Assembly: GCF_000337335.1 (NCBI RefSeq) | Contig: NZ_AOJN01000048.1 | Coordinates: forward strand, 105,203 to 162,512 | Length of the DNA stretch: 57,310 nucleotides | Source of the DNA: Halorubrum distributum JCM 10118 | GTDB lineage: Archaea; Halobacteriota; Halobacteria; Halobacteriales; Haloferacaceae | Direction of reading: 5' to 3' | Shown: piece by piece, positions 23,378-56,367 of the stretch | Layout: each line of letters begins with the position of its first letter | Numbering within the stretch: position 1 is the first letter of the stretch | The notes under the pieces: model-generated | What the model saw: only the letters and a program-made list of their open reading frames with translations | What the model was told of the DNA's origin: nothing | The model's database searches: none | Made by a program: the position numbers and the translations under genes

Positions 23378-26300
23378 ATGATCCGGACGCGATCGGTTCA
23401 ATGGCTGTGGGTCGGCATCGTGATGGGTGCTGTGGTGGGCGCCGTTGTCTTACTAATTATCTCTGGGACATTCGCAGCCTCCGCACAACTATGGGATGTA
23501 GATAGTGCGAGCGATCTTGAAATTGGATCCGAACAGCAGCAAGTAGTCACCAATATCGAAGTTCTTGACTCTAACGAGCCTGTTGAGATTCATGTTGGAG
23601 ATCTTGTTGACTCTGGAGCAGAGTTAGATCACAACGCGACATCCTATCGAATAGACATTGATGAGAAAACGAATAGATCGGAGGTGTATATAGAAAACCC
23701 GAACAGCTCAAATGCGACCGTTGTCGTGTCTGCTTCAGCAATTTCCAGTCCTGGCCGTTTTGATCTATACATCAGCAATATAGATACAACAAATGTTAGT
23801 AAATACGATGAAGAAGGAGCAAAAATAAATCGCGATCTTTCATATACTGCTGAACAGGGAGGAAAGAAAGCATCTGTTGGTTTTAGCATATCTTCTCTTG
23901 GATCTATCGGATTCAAATCTGATACGTATAACCAATCTACACAATCTGTTTTCTACAATTACTCCACAAACAATAATCAAAGCCTAAACACTGCTGTAAC
24001 AATTTGGGAGGAGGAGCAAGATGGGAGCCTGGGAGAGAAAATCAAAACTGTAGAGACATCTAGTAAAAATATATCACTCAGAGACACTGATATTGAAGGT
24101 GAAACAAAGATAATAATTGGTCTTCACTCTTCACCAGACAAGCACAGTTTCAATGCGATCTACGCTTTAGATTCAACAACTATCAATGTCTCTGTGCCTG
24201 CCCAACTTGTAGGTGGGCCATTTTATTACAGCAGAACTGACGTGGATAAGGGATCTGACGGTACTCTCCTGTTCGAATTCAACACGAATATATCCCGTTC
24301 CCAGGGCTATATAACTACTAAATTATCCAATAATAGAACAGAAAACATCTCTCTTAAAAACCATCCAGAGACCTTTGATATAAAAGGTGACTTCCTGTAT
24401 GTTTATCCACTGACCTCAACCAACATTTCTACTAAAGATATTCAACCGGTGATCAACAATATCGAAGTTGGTGGTATTGTCTCCACCTCAAGCAGTAACC
24501 CGTACAAAAACCAATTCAGTTCTCCTGTTCGTGTAGATAATTTAGTCTATAGTGGGAAGAGAGATATAATCAATCAAGGTTCGAATATTGGCCTCCGATT
24601 AGAACAACAGTATGGCTATAATCTATCAAAACTTAACGGAAGTTTGGTTAAACAAATAGATTCTACTGGTTTAAACACTATTCATACGGTAAGAACAGAA
24701 GGTCTTAGCCCCGGCCACTACTCAGTGAATTCTAATTCTGGAACAGAGAATATTACCTTCCAGTTGATTGACTCATCCATTCATTTTGAAACAGCTGACA
24801 CAGTAAACGGATCTCAGATACCGATTCATATTGGTTCGACTGGAACCAATCGGACTGCTGTTCTTAATGTCTCGAAGGCAAATTCTGGTATGATATTTCG
24901 GACAGAGATTATGTTGAATAACGCTTCCAATGTCAGTAGATATATTCCTGTTTCTCAACCCGGAACATACTCAGTAGAATTACATGATCTGGATACGAAT
25001 ATCACCACTGCTCAGGATGTAGAGGTTTTGAAAGACAGAAACCCTACTGTCCGTGCTGCTATTCATGAGAAATTACACAGTGGTAGCCATCTCGATCTAG
25101 TTCTAAATTCAACATATGATACCTCTTCGATAACTTTGATGTCTCAAAATAATACCACTACAACACTCGAACTGAAAACCATCGAGACGGATCCGACACC
25201 AGTGACGGTCAATACGTACGCGTCGCCCGAATCCCCGTCGGAGTTCGTCACGACCGGGTCCGGCATCGACGTCGAATCGGTCACGGGCGATACCGCTCCG
25301 CTCTCGCCCGGGACGTACGACCTCTCGCTGCGGTCGGAGCACGGCACCGAAGTCGCCAACGACACCGCGACGGTCACCGTGGAACCCCGCTCGACGAGCG
25401 ACCTGACCGCGTACACCACGCGGTCGGTCGCATCCGGGGAGTTCGAGAACGCATCCGCGGTCCGAGAGGCGATCGCCGACGGAACCCTCACGCCGGCGAC
25501 GACCGCGACCGCGAACGACACCGTCGTGTACGCCGTGAACGCAACCGGGCTGACGGGCCTCCCGGCGGCCGCGAACGCGTCGCTGGAACGAGGTGCGGAC
25601 CTCGACCGGCTCGACGGCCTCTCGTTCGGCGTGGCGCCGACGGGGGCGGACGACGGCGACGAGTCCACCGACGGCGACGGGCTCGGTCGAACGCTGAACG
25701 GATCCGGGATTCACCTCGACCGACAGGGCCTGTACCTCGTCGCCGACGGCGAACGCGCGTTCGGAACCGAGACGCTCCCCGAACCCGGCGCGACGTTCGA
25801 GGCCGAGTTCCGAGTCGACGACGATCGACTGCGTCGGACCGCCGCGGACGACCGGCACCGGGCGGCGACCGAACTGACCTACGCCACCGATTCGACCGAT
25901 GGGAGCATCGCCACCGAAAGCGGCGACGACTCGACCGAAGCGAGCGGGTCCACCGACTCGGAGGCGTCGGGTTCGACCAGTTCGACAGGCGGTTCCGATG
26001 CGATCGGTGGGGGGTCGGCCGGTGGTGGTTCGACCGGCGGCAGTTCGACCGGTGGTGGTTCGACCGGTGGGGGGTCGACTGGCGGCAGTTCGACCGGCGG
26101 CAGTTCGACCGGTGGGGGGTCGACCGGTGGTGGTTCGACCGGCGGCCCGAACGCACCCGGAGGAGGCGCCGGCCCCGCCGGCTCGGCCGCCGCCGGTAAC
26201 GCCACGAACGCGGGCGGTCCGGCCCCGTCCGAAGAGTCGCTGGGGCCGGACGCGAACCGCCCGGCGCCGCGCCTCGGCATGGGCATCTCGATCGCCCCCG

Positions 26301-34134: not shown

Positions 34135-34565
34135 TTATTTATAAATAACCGACCGGGTGCGGTGGCGCGTGCCTCCGAGTGGCCGCCGAAGGCGGCCGCG
34201 AGGAGCACGCGCGAGGGACGCCGCGAGCGCTTTTAAGCGCGAGCGGCGAGGCTGGGGAGGTGGGAGGTGCTGTGCGGAGCGGTGTGGGGCGGGACTCAAA
34301 GGGGCAGTCGCGAGGCGACCGTAGGCGACGTAAGCACCGGAACGAGGGAGCGAACGGAGTGAGCGACCGAGTGAGGAGCGCAGCGAGCGTACGGTCGCCT
34401 CGCGACTGGGGCTTTGGCGGTGTTCGTCGCGGGATCGCCGACCGTAATTTATAATCGAGCTGGGGATTTTGCGGTGTTCGTCGCGGGATCGCCGACCGTA
34501 ATTTATAATCGAGCTGGGGCTTTGGCGGTGTTCGACGGCGATCCGCAATGGGCCATTTATAAATG
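34135..34565. repeat. Element A: structured repeat, candidate non-coding RNA or mobile element
   Basis: It is bounded by the palindromes TTATTTATAAATAA (34135-34148) and CATTTATAAATG (34554-34565). Inside are a hairpin at 34165-34212 (GCGCGTGC against GCACGCGC, then GGCCGCC against GGCGGCC), the block GGGACTCAAAGGGGCAG (34291-34307), a 19-bp perfect stem pairing 34305-34323 with 34390-34408 around a 66-base loop, and three tandem 54-bp units from 34406. A second copy is at 52400-52822. The loop and blocks are nearly identical in the two copies, and the stem differs only by compensated changes. No convincing protein is encoded. The element separates the divergent ABC transporter and START-like genes. 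Confidence 0.85.
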
Positions 34566-34567
34566 AG
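34406..34567. repeat. Three 54-bp tandem units at the end of element A
   Basis: Units begin at 34406, 34460 and 34514 with CTGGGG(C/A)TTT and GCGGTGTTCG and end in an ATTTATAA box. Units 1 and 2 are almost identical; unit 3 diverges in the middle. Confidence 0.92.
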
Positions 34568-35302: not shown

Positions 35303-35374
35303 GGGCTCGTAGATCAGTGGTAGATCATCCCCCTGGCACGGGGAAGGCCCGGGGTTCAAATCCCCGCGAGTCCA
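35303..35374 (+). tRNA. tRNA-Ala(GGC)
   Basis: A full cloverleaf of 72 bases is visible: acceptor GGGCTCG/CGAGTCC, D stem GATC/GATC with loop AGTGGTA, anticodon stem TCCCC/GGGGA with loop CTGGCAC (anticodon GGC at 35335-35337), variable AGGCC, T stem CGGGG/CCCCG with loop TTCAAAT, and discriminator A. There is no intron and no encoded CCA. The anticodon reads GCC and GCU alanine codons. Confidence 0.97.
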
Positions 35375-35375
35375 T
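35362..35375 (+). other. att-like repeat, copy 1 (tRNA-Ala 3' end)
   Basis: CCCCGCGAGTCCAT covers the 3' end of tRNA-Ala and is duplicated 87 bases downstream (35449-35462). Duplication of a tRNA 3' end is the mark of site-specific integration by a tyrosine recombinase. Confidence 0.65.
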
Positions 35376-36060
35376 TCCTTCGCTCACTTCGTTCGCTCAG
35401 TCATTCCCTCGCGTGGTCCCACTCGCTCGCTGCGCTCGCTCGCGGGACCCCCGCGAGTCCATGATTTTGCGCCGCGAGCAACGTCGCGAGCGGCGCATAT
35501 CTGTACCGAGTGGAGATTTGAACCCTATACCAGTCGCGCGCAGTCCGAAGTCGTCGAGCGGCTCGCCGCGAAGCGAGCGCTCGATCTCGGTGTCGGACGG
35601 AGCGTGTCGCAGGCGGACTGTACCTCTCCTTTTTATCGTGCTTTCACACGAGCGCAACGAGCCGAGGTCGAATTAGACCACCTTCTCCACACGTGTGACT
35701 TCGTCCTCAGACCGTTATTTCACTCATACGAGTTCGAATACTGTCACACTCTCTCGCTTATTATAGACAGTTTCTCATCAGCATCACAAGATCTGCTGGA
35801 TCACCGTTATTGGGTGATTCGCGCGCAACGGTTGAGACGGGTCGACACGTCCCACAACACGTTCGGCCCTGGTTCGAGCATTACCCTCGAAGTCAAGATC
35901 GAGGTGAGCACGACAGTTGCACTGTTAGTGCGTACTCTCGTCACGCAGTTGTAAAAGGGGCTGCTCGATGGTATATTCGTGTGGGCAGATGACGACCACA
36001 CGCCCCACAACACGCGTTTTGCGTTACTCGCTTCCCGTATTTCAGACGTATGTCGGCGGC
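35376..36060. other. Degenerate spacer with att-like repeat copy 2
   Basis: It contains the second CCCCGCGAGTCCAT at 35449-35462, then GC-rich sequence with direct and inverted repeats typical of haloarchaeal spacers, then a lower-GC stretch (about 35630-35990) unlike the flanks. Short open frames exist on both strands here but none has recognisable domains or native codon use. It is best read as debris of an integrated element. Confidence 0.55.
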
Positions 36061-43834: not shown

Positions 43835-45121
43835 ATGGAGGTACGTCGCACCGTTCCCGTCAAACTCGACGTGGCCGACAGCGACGCTGACCTCCTCCAC
43901 GAAACCATCTCCGAGTTCCTGTGGGCTGCCAACTACGTCGTCGACCACGCGTGGGAAGGCGAATACAAGACCACGAGCAAAGCTGAACTCCAACGCGAAA
44001 CCTACGACGACGTGCGGGCCGAGACGCGACTCCAAGCGAACCTCGTCCAAAACGCTCGCAACAAGGCCGCCGACGCCGTCCAGAGCGTCGTCGCTCGGTG
44101 GAAGCAAGGTGACTACGCGGGGAAGCCGAACTTCTCCGCACCGACGCTCGTCTACGACAAGCGATGTGCGACGTTCAACGACGACCACGCGACGCTCTCG
44201 ACCGTTGAAGGGCGCATCACCGCGGAGTACGTCCTCCCCGATGAGAGCCGCGAGACGCCCCACTCGGAGTATCTGTTCAACGACGACTACGAAGTGACAG
44301 GCGGGGAACTCCACTACCGCGACGGCGAGTTCTACCTTCACGTCCGCACAAAGGCGGACGTGGAGTTCGAGACTGCCGACGACGGCAACGACGGGCACAG
44401 CACAGTCCTCGGCGTTGACCTCGGCATCGAAAACGTCGCCGTCACCTCCACAGGGACATTCTGGAACGGGTCGGAGTTGAATCACTGGCACCGCGAGTTC
44501 GAGAAGCGGCGCGGATCACTCCATCAGTGTGGCACGCGGGCCGCCCACGAAACCATCCAATCGGTCGGACGTACTGAGACAGGCCGCTACGACCACTTCT
44601 TACACACCGTCTCGAAAGAACTCGTCGCGGAAGCCGTCGAGTATGGCTGCGACGTGATCGCGTTCGAAAACCTGACAGGGATTCGTGAGCGGATGCCTCG
44701 TGCCAAGAAGTTCCACGAATGGGCGTTCCGCCGTCTGTTCGAGTACCTCAAGTACAAAGCTGAGACCGTCGGTATCTCGGTCGAAGAAGTGAGTCCTGCC
44801 TACACCTCTCAACGGTGTTCAAAGTGTGGATTCACCCATGAGGACAACCGCCCGACATCGGACGGACAGGACGTATTCGAGTGCCTGAAGTGCGGGTACT
44901 CACCTCACGCGGACTACAACGCGGCGAAGAACATCGGTCTGAAGCATCTCCGCGCGGCGCAAACGTCGTCGGGCGGAGGCGCACCCGTAAACGTGCGCTT
45001 GAATCGCGGGACGTTGAACGTGAACGGCGAGTATTCGCCTGCCGCCGACGGCGGCCAGAACGGAAGTCCACGCGAAAGCCCCACCCTCAACGAAGCGAAC
45101 GGCGAAGCCGTGAGCGAGTAG
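43835..45121 (+). CDS. tnpB: TnpB RNA-guided endonuclease (IS1341-type transposase)
   Basis: The 428-residue protein has all three RuvC acidic residues: Asp195 in [11 protein letters not shown], Glu278 in [10 protein letters not shown] and Asp360 in [11 protein letters not shown]. The zinc ribbon has CSKCG (from Cys328) and CLKCGY. The N-terminal WED/REC-like part starts [15 protein letters not shown]. TnpB cuts DNA next to a TAM guided by an omega RNA from the element's right end, promoting element retention. The protein is full length and apparently intact. The last residues are encoded within the right-end hairpin. An AT-rich TATA region (TAATATAAAACT, about 30 bases upstream) serves as promoter. 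Confidence 0.95.
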
Positions 45122-52285: not shown

Positions 52286-52399
52286 GTCTTCACCTGTCCG
52301 CGCCAGCGACAAAGGTCCGCAGGATCCGGCACGACCGTCGCCCTTCGCCGAACCGCGAGTGATCCGATATTTAAATAACCGTGAACGGCGACGAGAGTT

Positions 52400-52822
52400 G
52401 TTTATAAATGAATCCGCGGTGGCGCGTGCCTGCGAGCGGCCGCCAAAGGCGGCCGCGAGGAGCACGCGCGAGGGAGTCGCGAGCGAAGCGAGCGACGAGG
52501 CTGGGGAGGTGTGAGGTGCGGGGCTGTGCGGTGCCGGGGCGGGACTCAAAGGGGCAGCCGGGAGGCTGGCGCAGGCGACGCAAGCACCGCAACGAGGGAG
52601 CGAACGCAGTGAGCGACCGAGTGAGGAGCGCAGCGAGCGTGCGCCAGCCTCCCGGCTGGGGCTTTGGAGGTGTTCACCGCCGAGCCGCTATCAGCCATTT
52701 ATAAGCGAACGGCTGGGGATTTGGCGGTGTTCGCGGTCGATCCGAAGTCAACGATTTATAAGCGAACGGCTGGGGCTTTGGCGGTGTTCGACGCCGATCT
52801 ACTGCCAGCTATTTATAAATAG
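52400..52822. repeat. Element B: second copy of the structured repeat
   Basis: It begins at a TTTATAAA box (52401-52408) and ends in the palindrome CTATTTATAAATAG (52809-52822). It repeats element A in the same order: GC hairpin 52422-52469, GGGACTCAAAGGGGCAG (52541-52557), the 19-bp perfect stem pairing 52555-52573 with 52640-52658 around a 66-base loop, and three units. The loop differs from element A at only three of 66 bases. It lies between the 5' end of the M42 peptidase gene and the 3' end of the Nudix gene. Confidence 0.85.
52656..52822. repeat. Three 57-bp tandem units at the end of element B
   Basis: Units begin at 52656, 52713 and 52770 with CTGGGG(C/A)TTTGG and a GGTGTTC block and end with a TTTATAAGCGAACGG type box; the last ends in the terminal palindrome. 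Confidence 0.92.
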
Positions 52823-52843
52823 ACATCCCACGCGGAGTACTAC

Positions 52844-55221: not shown

Positions 55222-56367
55222 ATGAACCGATGGATTGCGAGCCTCGTCGTCGTGGCCGTCGCCGCGGCGGTGATCGCCGGGGCCGCCGCGGCCGCGCCGG
55301 CGGGGCCGGTGGCGCCGCAGACCGATTCGCCGATCAACGCGAGCGACGGCGAGAACGGGACCGCCGAGAACGCGACGACCGACCTCAGCCCCGGCGAACG
55401 CCTCGCGGGCGTCGTCGGCGTTCAGGGCGCCGAGATCGAGGGCGAGGTCGAGTCCCGCGCCTTCGAGGTCGGGCTCCGGCAGGCCGAGACGAACGAGAGC
55501 CGCGCCGGCGTCGTCGCGGAGCGACTGAACCGGACCGAGGAGCGGCTCGCGGAGCTGGAAGCACGACAGCGGGAGCTCCGCGAGCGCCGCGCGGCCGGCG
55601 AGCTGAGTCAGGGCGCGTACGCCGCCCGGATGGCGACGACGACCGCGCGGATCGAGACGCTCTCCCGGGGCCTGAACCGGAGCGCGAGCGCGGCGGCCGA
55701 ACTCCCGCCCGCCGTCCGCAACGAGACGGGCGTCGACGACGAGCGGCTGGCGACGCTGCGCGAGCGCGCGAACGAGCTCAGCGGCCCCGAGGTCGCCGCC
55801 ATCGCCCGGGGCGTGGCCGGCGAGGGCGTCGGCGGGCCGGTCGGTCCGGAACGCCGCGGCCCGCCGGGGAACGGGACCGAACGCGGGCCCCCGAGCGACG
55901 CCGGTCCGCCCGGCGAGGGGCCACTGGGCGGCGGTTCGGGAAACGGGTCGGCCGGGCCGCCGGGAGCGGGTCCGGGGAACGGGTCGGTCGGTGGTCCCGG
56001 AGCGGGTCCGGGAAACGGGTCGGCCGGGCCGCCGGGGGCGGGTCCGGGGAACGGGTCGGTCGGTGGTCCCGGTAACGGGTCAGCAGGACCGCCGGACGCG
56101 GCGGGCGCGAACGGGTCCGAGACCGGCGCCGCGAACGGGTCGGACCCGCTCGGTCCGCCGGGATCCGGGGGCGGGACCGACGACGGGTCGGGTAACGCGT
56201 CGACCGGTCCGCCGGTCGGCTCCGGCGACGGGTCCGGGAGCGGCGGGCCGGGCGACGGCGGCCCCGACGGAAACGGATCGAGCGGCGGCGCTGGCGCACC
56301 GTCGGTCGACGGGGCGCCGGGTGCTCCGTGGACGGACGTCGGGAGCGCCTCGCGCCTCGATGGGTGA
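55222..56367 (+). CDS. Exported coiled-coil protein with Gly-Pro-Asn-Gly-Ser repeats
   Basis: The 381-residue protein has a signal peptide (MNRWIASLVVVAVAAAVIAG, cleavage near residue 25-35), an N-terminal helical domain with a coiled coil (ERLNRTEERLAELEARQREL, about residues 100-125) and a low-complexity C-terminal half of PGNGS-type repeats (about 210-360) with many NGS glycosylation sequons. It resembles a haloarchaeal family annotated DUF7096 (from memory). No C-terminal anchor is seen. It precedes the membrane HTH-type gene by less than 100 bases, so the two are probably an operon. Confidence 0.75.
   Translation: MNRWIASLVVVAVAAAVIAGAAAAAPAGPVAPQTDSPINASDGENGTAENATTDLSPGERLAGVVGVQGAEIEGEVESRAFEVGLRQAETNESRAGVVAERLNRTEERLAELEARQRELRERRAAGELSQGAYAARMATTTARIETLSRGLNRSASAAAELPPAVRNETGVDDERLATLRERANELSGPEVAAIARGVAGEGVGGPVGPERRGPPGNGTERGPPSDAGPPGEGPLGGGSGNGSAGPPGAGPGNGSVGGPGAGPGNGSAGPPGAGPGNGSVGGPGNGSAGPPDAAGANGSETGAANGSDPLGPPGSGGGTDDGSGNASTGPPVGSGDGSGSGGPGDGGPDGNGSSGGAGAPSVDGAPGAPWTDVGSASRLDG

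Follow-up and report, generated by a model that had tools for sequence, protein, structure and literature searches.

Dispersed, modular repeats with terminal inverted repeats have been reported in Streptococcus pneumoniae as BOX elements (PMC3049150). Among haloarchaea, Haloquadratum walsbyi carries PATEs and other short mobile repeats that are free of transposase genes, contain palindromes, leave no target duplication and are sometimes split by other small repeats (PMC3119063). A third type of system is provided by the omega RNAs (sotRNA; Rfam RF02656 and RF02657) of IS200/IS605 elements, which are structured RNAs tied to mobile DNA in haloarchaea (PMC12558985). Here we describe element A and its second copy, element B, in the window (the whole 57,310-nt stretch of Halorubrum distributum JCM 10118 DNA that was analysed) together with the repeat family to which they belong. 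No description of this family was found in the literature, chiefly openly readable papers.

When the source genome (3.3 Mb in 68 contigs) was queried by BLAST with element A, 40 scored relatives of 74–88% identity were returned. The same 3.3 Mb were searched with R1, a covariance model of hairpin H3 (119 positions) for which 37 copies had been aligned; at least 138 matches were obtained, a lower bound with 150 candidates scored. Some few of these matches represent incomplete copies or echoes from the reverse strand. The first-pass annotation had presented an RNA element in two copies. That picture is not supported, given the more than 110 copies detected in the genome by BLAST and the covariance model, and also the filled and empty sites and the exchange of hairpin modules described below: this is an unannotated dispersed intergenic repeat family, not a pair of elements. 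DNA searches located the family in all 34 congeners sampled, and of 242 genomes of the class, 178 contain relatives recognised by R1; class-wide, copy numbers range from none to more than 110. Twelve chosen genomes from other genera contain 3 to 75 copies each at E < 1e-6 (R1 E-values are rough, and distant matches were read by eye in part); these copies have the same layout and sometimes form inverted pairs ~300 bases apart. Outside the class, the R1 search gave no match to other classes of the phylum among the matches listed. Exact matches to the 17-letter block of the family, among those listed, were to Halorubrum contigs and Halorubrum-like MAGs.

When the whole window was compared with Rfam at curated thresholds only a tRNA matched, and at loose thresholds there was only a chance match (E 0.86). 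The element thus matches no Rfam family, and at the outset it had not been recognised as a known one. Two candidate origins were rejected. A virus or plasmid source was discarded, with no phage match, no viral contig carrying the 17-mer and few plasmid matches (one weak match in Halorubrum and two in Halobaculum). A protein-coding reading was dismissed since no gene was called over any of 111 checked copies by a simple codon-usage gene finder, and both arms of the hairpin covary.

Table 1. Coordinates of elements A and B and of the parts of element A within the window.
Feature	Position	Strand	Basis or remarks
Element A, whole copy, from 5' AT box to end of third tail unit	34138..34567	+	BLAST and covariance-model family; ends set by repeat units and AT boxes
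5' AT box TTTATAA of element A, promoter-like	34138..34144	+	26 nt ahead of GGCGCG in copy A
Hairpin H1 of element A	34165..34212	+	Outer helix GCGCGTGC/GCACGCGC, then inner helix; folding and covarying segments
Tandem GA in H1	34177-34178 and 34200-34201	+	
Hairpin H2 of element A, hypervariable	34219..34248	+	Tandem GA at 34225-34226 and 34241-34242
G-rich linker of element A, GAGGCTGGGGAGG...GGGGCGGGACT	34249..34296	+	Nearly invariant blocks in 37 copies
H3 closing helix, 5' side CAAAG	34297..34301	+	Partner 34412-34416; followed by invariant GGG facing GGG
H3 stem, 5' arm, 19 nt	34305..34323	+	Covariation counts
H3 interior	34324..34389	+	Tandem G.A pairs between 2-bp Watson-Crick steps
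H3 stem, 3' arm	34390..34408	+	Covariation counts
H3 closing helix, 3' side CTTTG	34412..34416	+	Covariation of closing helix
Three 54-bp tail units, CTGGGGCTTTGG...TTTATAA	34406-34459, 34460-34513, 34514-34567	+	Repeat family D7; unit number differs among copies
Element B, second copy in the window	52369..52823	+	AT boxes 52369 and 52401; core 52416-52667; three 57-bp tail units from 52656

Read from 5' to 3', the plus strand of the family opens with AT boxes and the two hairpins H1 and H2; a G-rich linker leads to the third hairpin, H3, which is closed by the helix CAAAG/CTTTG, and one to several tail units of 54–57 bp follow, most of which include a TTTATAA box (Table 1). In element A such boxes are found at 34138, 34448, 34502 and 34556, and the GGGACTCAAAGGGGCAG block has its last base at 34307; the stem of element B is formed by 52555-52573 paired with 52640-52658. 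The family AT box usually lies 17–21 nt ahead of GGCGCG (22–27 nt in a minority), irrespective of the sense of the upstream gene, and a second one near -50 nt is often present, although in only about a quarter of the copies. A box at the fixed distance accompanies 33 of 49 copies behind same-sense genes (67%) and 28 of 47 copies beside opposite-sense upstream genes (60%); with similar proportions in the two settings, the boxes are part of the repeat.

Both arms of H1 bear a tandem GA, and the segments adjoining it covary (e.g. TCC/GGA, TGC/GCA, GAC/GTC and GGT/ACC). H2 occurs as 106 distinct sequences in 141 copies, the common ones all being self-complementary, and its length varies as well. 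H3 consists, in order, of the covarying closing helix, GGG opposite GGG, the long stem, an interior of G.A steps and a short end loop. Positions initially assigned to H1, to the 19-bp stem and to the 66 nt that it encloses proved exact, and the stem is perfect over its 19 bp. The 66 nt, earlier taken for a conserved loop, are actually a continuation of the helix, in which 2-bp Watson-Crick steps are parted by tandem G.A pairs; folding of a single sequence predicts this interior without any alignment. The additional helix CAAAG/CTTTG, which had been proposed around the stem, is backed by CGAAG/CTTCG in four copies (L009, L016, L038 and L043) and by GAAAG/CTTTC or GGAAG/CTTCC in other genera.

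Some copies contain additional perfect hairpins within H1, the linker or H3. In L011, L039, L182, L185, L193, L194 and L198 they are paired and placed at recurring points of these three parts, with recurring spacers (e.g. GTCAT, CTGC and CGACAG), and the pairs may represent a smaller repeat in its own right. In another copy (L334:3626-3914; G000:C48:83625-83914) the part of H3 enclosed by the stem arms lies in reverse orientation, as though recombination between the inverted repeats had turned it around.

The stems of elements A and B differ at 6 of 19 positions, all six changes being compensated, and their interiors are the same at 63 of 66 positions (3 differ), as reported at the outset; compensation seen between these two paralogs alone could stem from exchange of modules between copies. 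In wider alignments the covariation nevertheless exceeds both shuffled and slid controls, also at a single orthologous site. In 37 paralogs of the genome pairing is kept in 96% of H3 cells, and both partners have changed in 21 of 33 pairs (13.8 in shuffles and at most 5 in slid structures); among site A orthologs from 13 species both have changed in 25 of 31 H3 pairs (shuffles 10.8, slides at most 7). The count is 28 of 31 H3 pairs both in 79 copies from named Halorubrum contigs and in 36 copies from other genera, the latter with a covariation score of 0.77 against 0.19 for shuffles; alignments A4–A6 had been fitted to the model and are biased in its favour, while A2 was not fitted. The predicted RNA folding energy of the single sequence is 7 SD under that of dinucleotide shuffles (z = -7.0). 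The initial view of the element as non-coding, structured and strongly covarying is borne out, its covariation by pair counts against controls.

The fold belongs to the plus strand. The H3 interior retains its tandem GA/GA in 33/37, 35/37, 37/37 and 16/20 copies even as the intervening 2-bp steps covary, and these G.A pairs are possible solely on this strand. In columns free of an alternative stem G.U combinations outnumber A.C ones (46 versus 17 cells), as expected when the plus strand is the folding one. At the same time, G.U pairs are rare, accounting for 1.2–2.6% of cells compared to 8.4% in 26 tRNAs from the analysed loci of the same organisms. So few G.U pairs are not typical of an RNA and form the most puzzling trait if the fold is that of a plain RNA; the scarcity fits either replacement of hairpins as blocks or a demand for strict pairing. 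The selected fold is probably formed by RNA, with single-stranded DNA as the alternative.

Contig C48 (162 kb) was compared with the matching stretch of genome G061, which is ~92% alike. All seven main copies are common to both, and in these copies runs identical over up to 100 bases end at a hairpin that has been swapped whole. G061 contains two more, inverted copies, each inside another insertion with CTGTTGAAATCC-type inverted ends (L345 and L347; G061:C1 about 2470380-2471400 and 2521950-2523080), and the H. distributum genome is without these CTGTTGAAATCC-ended insertions there. At least 12 congeners carry a copy at site A, the site being empty in G009, and in four genomes with a different neighbour a copy still lies beside the START-domain-like gene. 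Clean pairs of filled and empty sites were obtained for L213 (versus L215, L217, L218 and L222), L371 (versus L160) and L058 (versus L341 and L336); copies have been gained or lost between species, as the filled and empty sites among congeners show. The filled/empty pairs gave no sign of target duplication or of terminal inverted repeats, the exact ends of the repeat being uncertain. A reading of the TTTATAA boxes as target duplications was rejected, as the sequences outside the boxes are not alike at the two ends and no duplication is seen at empty sites. In a test of likeness, A was closer to paralogs and B to positional orthologs, the paralogs having been chosen by likeness to A, which biases the comparison. 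No mobility enzyme for the repeat was found.

We consider it probable, by a modest preponderance, that the family is a BOX-like, non-autonomous and slowly mobile intergenic repeat with a selected plus-strand fold, most likely of RNA. It would have spread through the class as a parasitic element and then expanded in Halorubrum. Its folded plus strand, transcribed from the repeat's own AT-box promoter or by read-through, would be recognised by a host or mobility protein, because of which the plus strand would have to fold; copies that lost the fold would be lost in turn, or be rewritten from other copies by gene conversion. Copies would last where they are least harmful, namely downstream of genes and, most of all, opposite the 3' end of a gene that is read towards them. 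There the fold or the tail units may curb read-through as well, with neutral or weakly useful effects on neighbouring genes. A possible but distinctly less favoured interpretation is that each copy is its own gene for a functional structured RNA with an AT-box promoter, i.e. a class-wide set of more than 100 diverse paralogs per Halorubrum genome that share one fold and are bound by a protein. Transcription from the repeat's own AT box, as assumed in the favoured reading too, has against it that the usual box at -19 is, given TATA spacing, too near H1 for an RNA start that would include all of H1, and that the box near -50 accompanies only about a quarter of the copies.

The fold might instead act as single-stranded DNA, its hairpins being recognised during replication by a transposase of the HUH type (IS200/IS605, PATE or REP-like) that moves the repeat, with no function as RNA. 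Folding on one strand, the apparent lack of both terminal inverted repeats and target duplication, the scarcity of G.U pairs, and an AT box whose spacing from the first hairpin is constant, reminiscent of an IS605 target site with its end hairpin, would all suit such a mechanism. End hairpins of the IS605 type are sequence-specific, whereas the H1–H3 stems are hypervariable; moreover, mobility is very low and the family profile gives no match at either end of the genome's 15 tnpB loci. PATEs are numerous in haloarchaea (PMC3119063), and we nevertheless regard this explanation as rather unlikely. Ends of the IS605 type, the sequence mark of PATEs, and a role as TnpB guide RNA were rejected, with no profile match at E up to 10 in the 15 tnpB loci of this genome. 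A MITE is not indicated either, as no terminal inverted repeats or target duplication were seen at filled/empty sites; the inverted ends around the two inverted copies of G061 belong to the other insertions in which these copies sit.

The genes flanking the copies bear on a further alternative, namely that the repeats serve the host as transcription insulators or terminators between converging genes and are retained for that role. The downstream gene is opposed to the copy in 76 cases and runs along with it in 33 (one-sided p about 2e-5, copies taken as independent), and on named contigs of other Halorubrum species the figures are 33 and 16; the upstream gene has the sense of the copy in 56 cases and the opposite sense in 53. 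This bias in orientation is of moderate extent. Converging neighbours flank 36 of 109 copies; among 88 wide gaps of one contig, 3 have such neighbours. Behind a same-sense gene, copies begin at a median distance of 48 nt; beside an opposite one the median is 124 nt, counted from that gene's start, as if promoters were spared. About a third of the copies are placed otherwise, tolerance of insertions behind genes accounts for part of the bias, and the class-wide range in copy number would be odd for a host need, which makes the insulator explanation doubtful. Least probable is a mutational origin, in which template switching at hairpins makes the arms complementary and gene conversion spreads the result without selection on the fold: the joint change of the arms with few G.U intermediates, the swapping of modules as blocks and the additional perfect hairpins of some copies agree with it, but unpaired linkers are nearly invariant as well, and arm-to-arm copying cannot be the sole cause of the paired changes because G.A mismatches, which copying would erase, persist between the covarying 2-bp steps, also in other genera.

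Other features of the window were recorded alongside the repeats. The stretch 35303-35462 includes a tRNA gene; its 3' end CCCGCGAGTCCAT (35363-35375) recurs at 35450-35462, as at an integration site, and reading frames in the stretch after it are short or broken. Minus-strand tandem-GA hairpins (GAGCGAACGAAGTGAGC type) resembling those of the repeat family occur past the tRNA at 35376-35450. A tnpB-like gene (Cas12f1-like TNB domain), one of the 15 matches in the genome, occupies 43835-45121, and no repeat copy adjoins it. Two genes contain in-frame glycine-rich tandem repeats with periods of 15 bp (25971-26175) and 36 bp (55933-56132).

If confirmed, the family would be a class-wide haloarchaeal counterpart to the bacterial BOX, ERIC and REP repeats, with unusually strong evidence for a selected fold. 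More than 100 diverged copies in one genome, combined with sites common to several species, offer a system in which to study the retention of structure under sequence turnover, and for annotation it matters that many copies stand unlabelled in public genomes. Since an in-frame deletion method exists for Halorubrum lacusprofundi (PMC10102395), the question is open to testing.

Among the described systems, the omega RNAs of IS200/IS605 elements resemble the present family in being structured RNAs tied to mobile DNA in haloarchaea, insofar as we infer an RNA here, but the family has no Rfam match and no adjoining tnpB. With the short mobile repeats of Haloquadratum walsbyi it shares freedom from transposase genes, comparable numbers, palindromes, an apparent lack of target duplication and occasional splitting by other small repeats (PMC3119063). 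In contrast to the family, PATEs have ends resembling those of IS605-type elements, whereas its profile matches no tnpB locus here, and PATEs show strain-specific insertions, whereas 7/7 sites are common over 162 kb. BOX offers the closest parallel. Both are dispersed and modular, contain a tandem array in which the number of units varies, are predicted to form extensive RNA structure, and combine an old expansion with slow mobility at present; in being dispersed, structured and slowly mobile, the haloarchaeal repeat is like BOX. The differences are that there is no known sequence relation between the two, that one is class-wide in haloarchaea and the other is found in streptococci, that strong compensatory change and tandem G.A helices distinguish the haloarchaeal family, that its variable units lie in the 3' tail and those of BOX (boxB) between the two end modules boxA and boxC, and that terminal inverted repeats, reported for BOX, were not seen in it. 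The haloarchaeal repeat appears to work like BOX (PMC3049150), the likeness being one of general kind.
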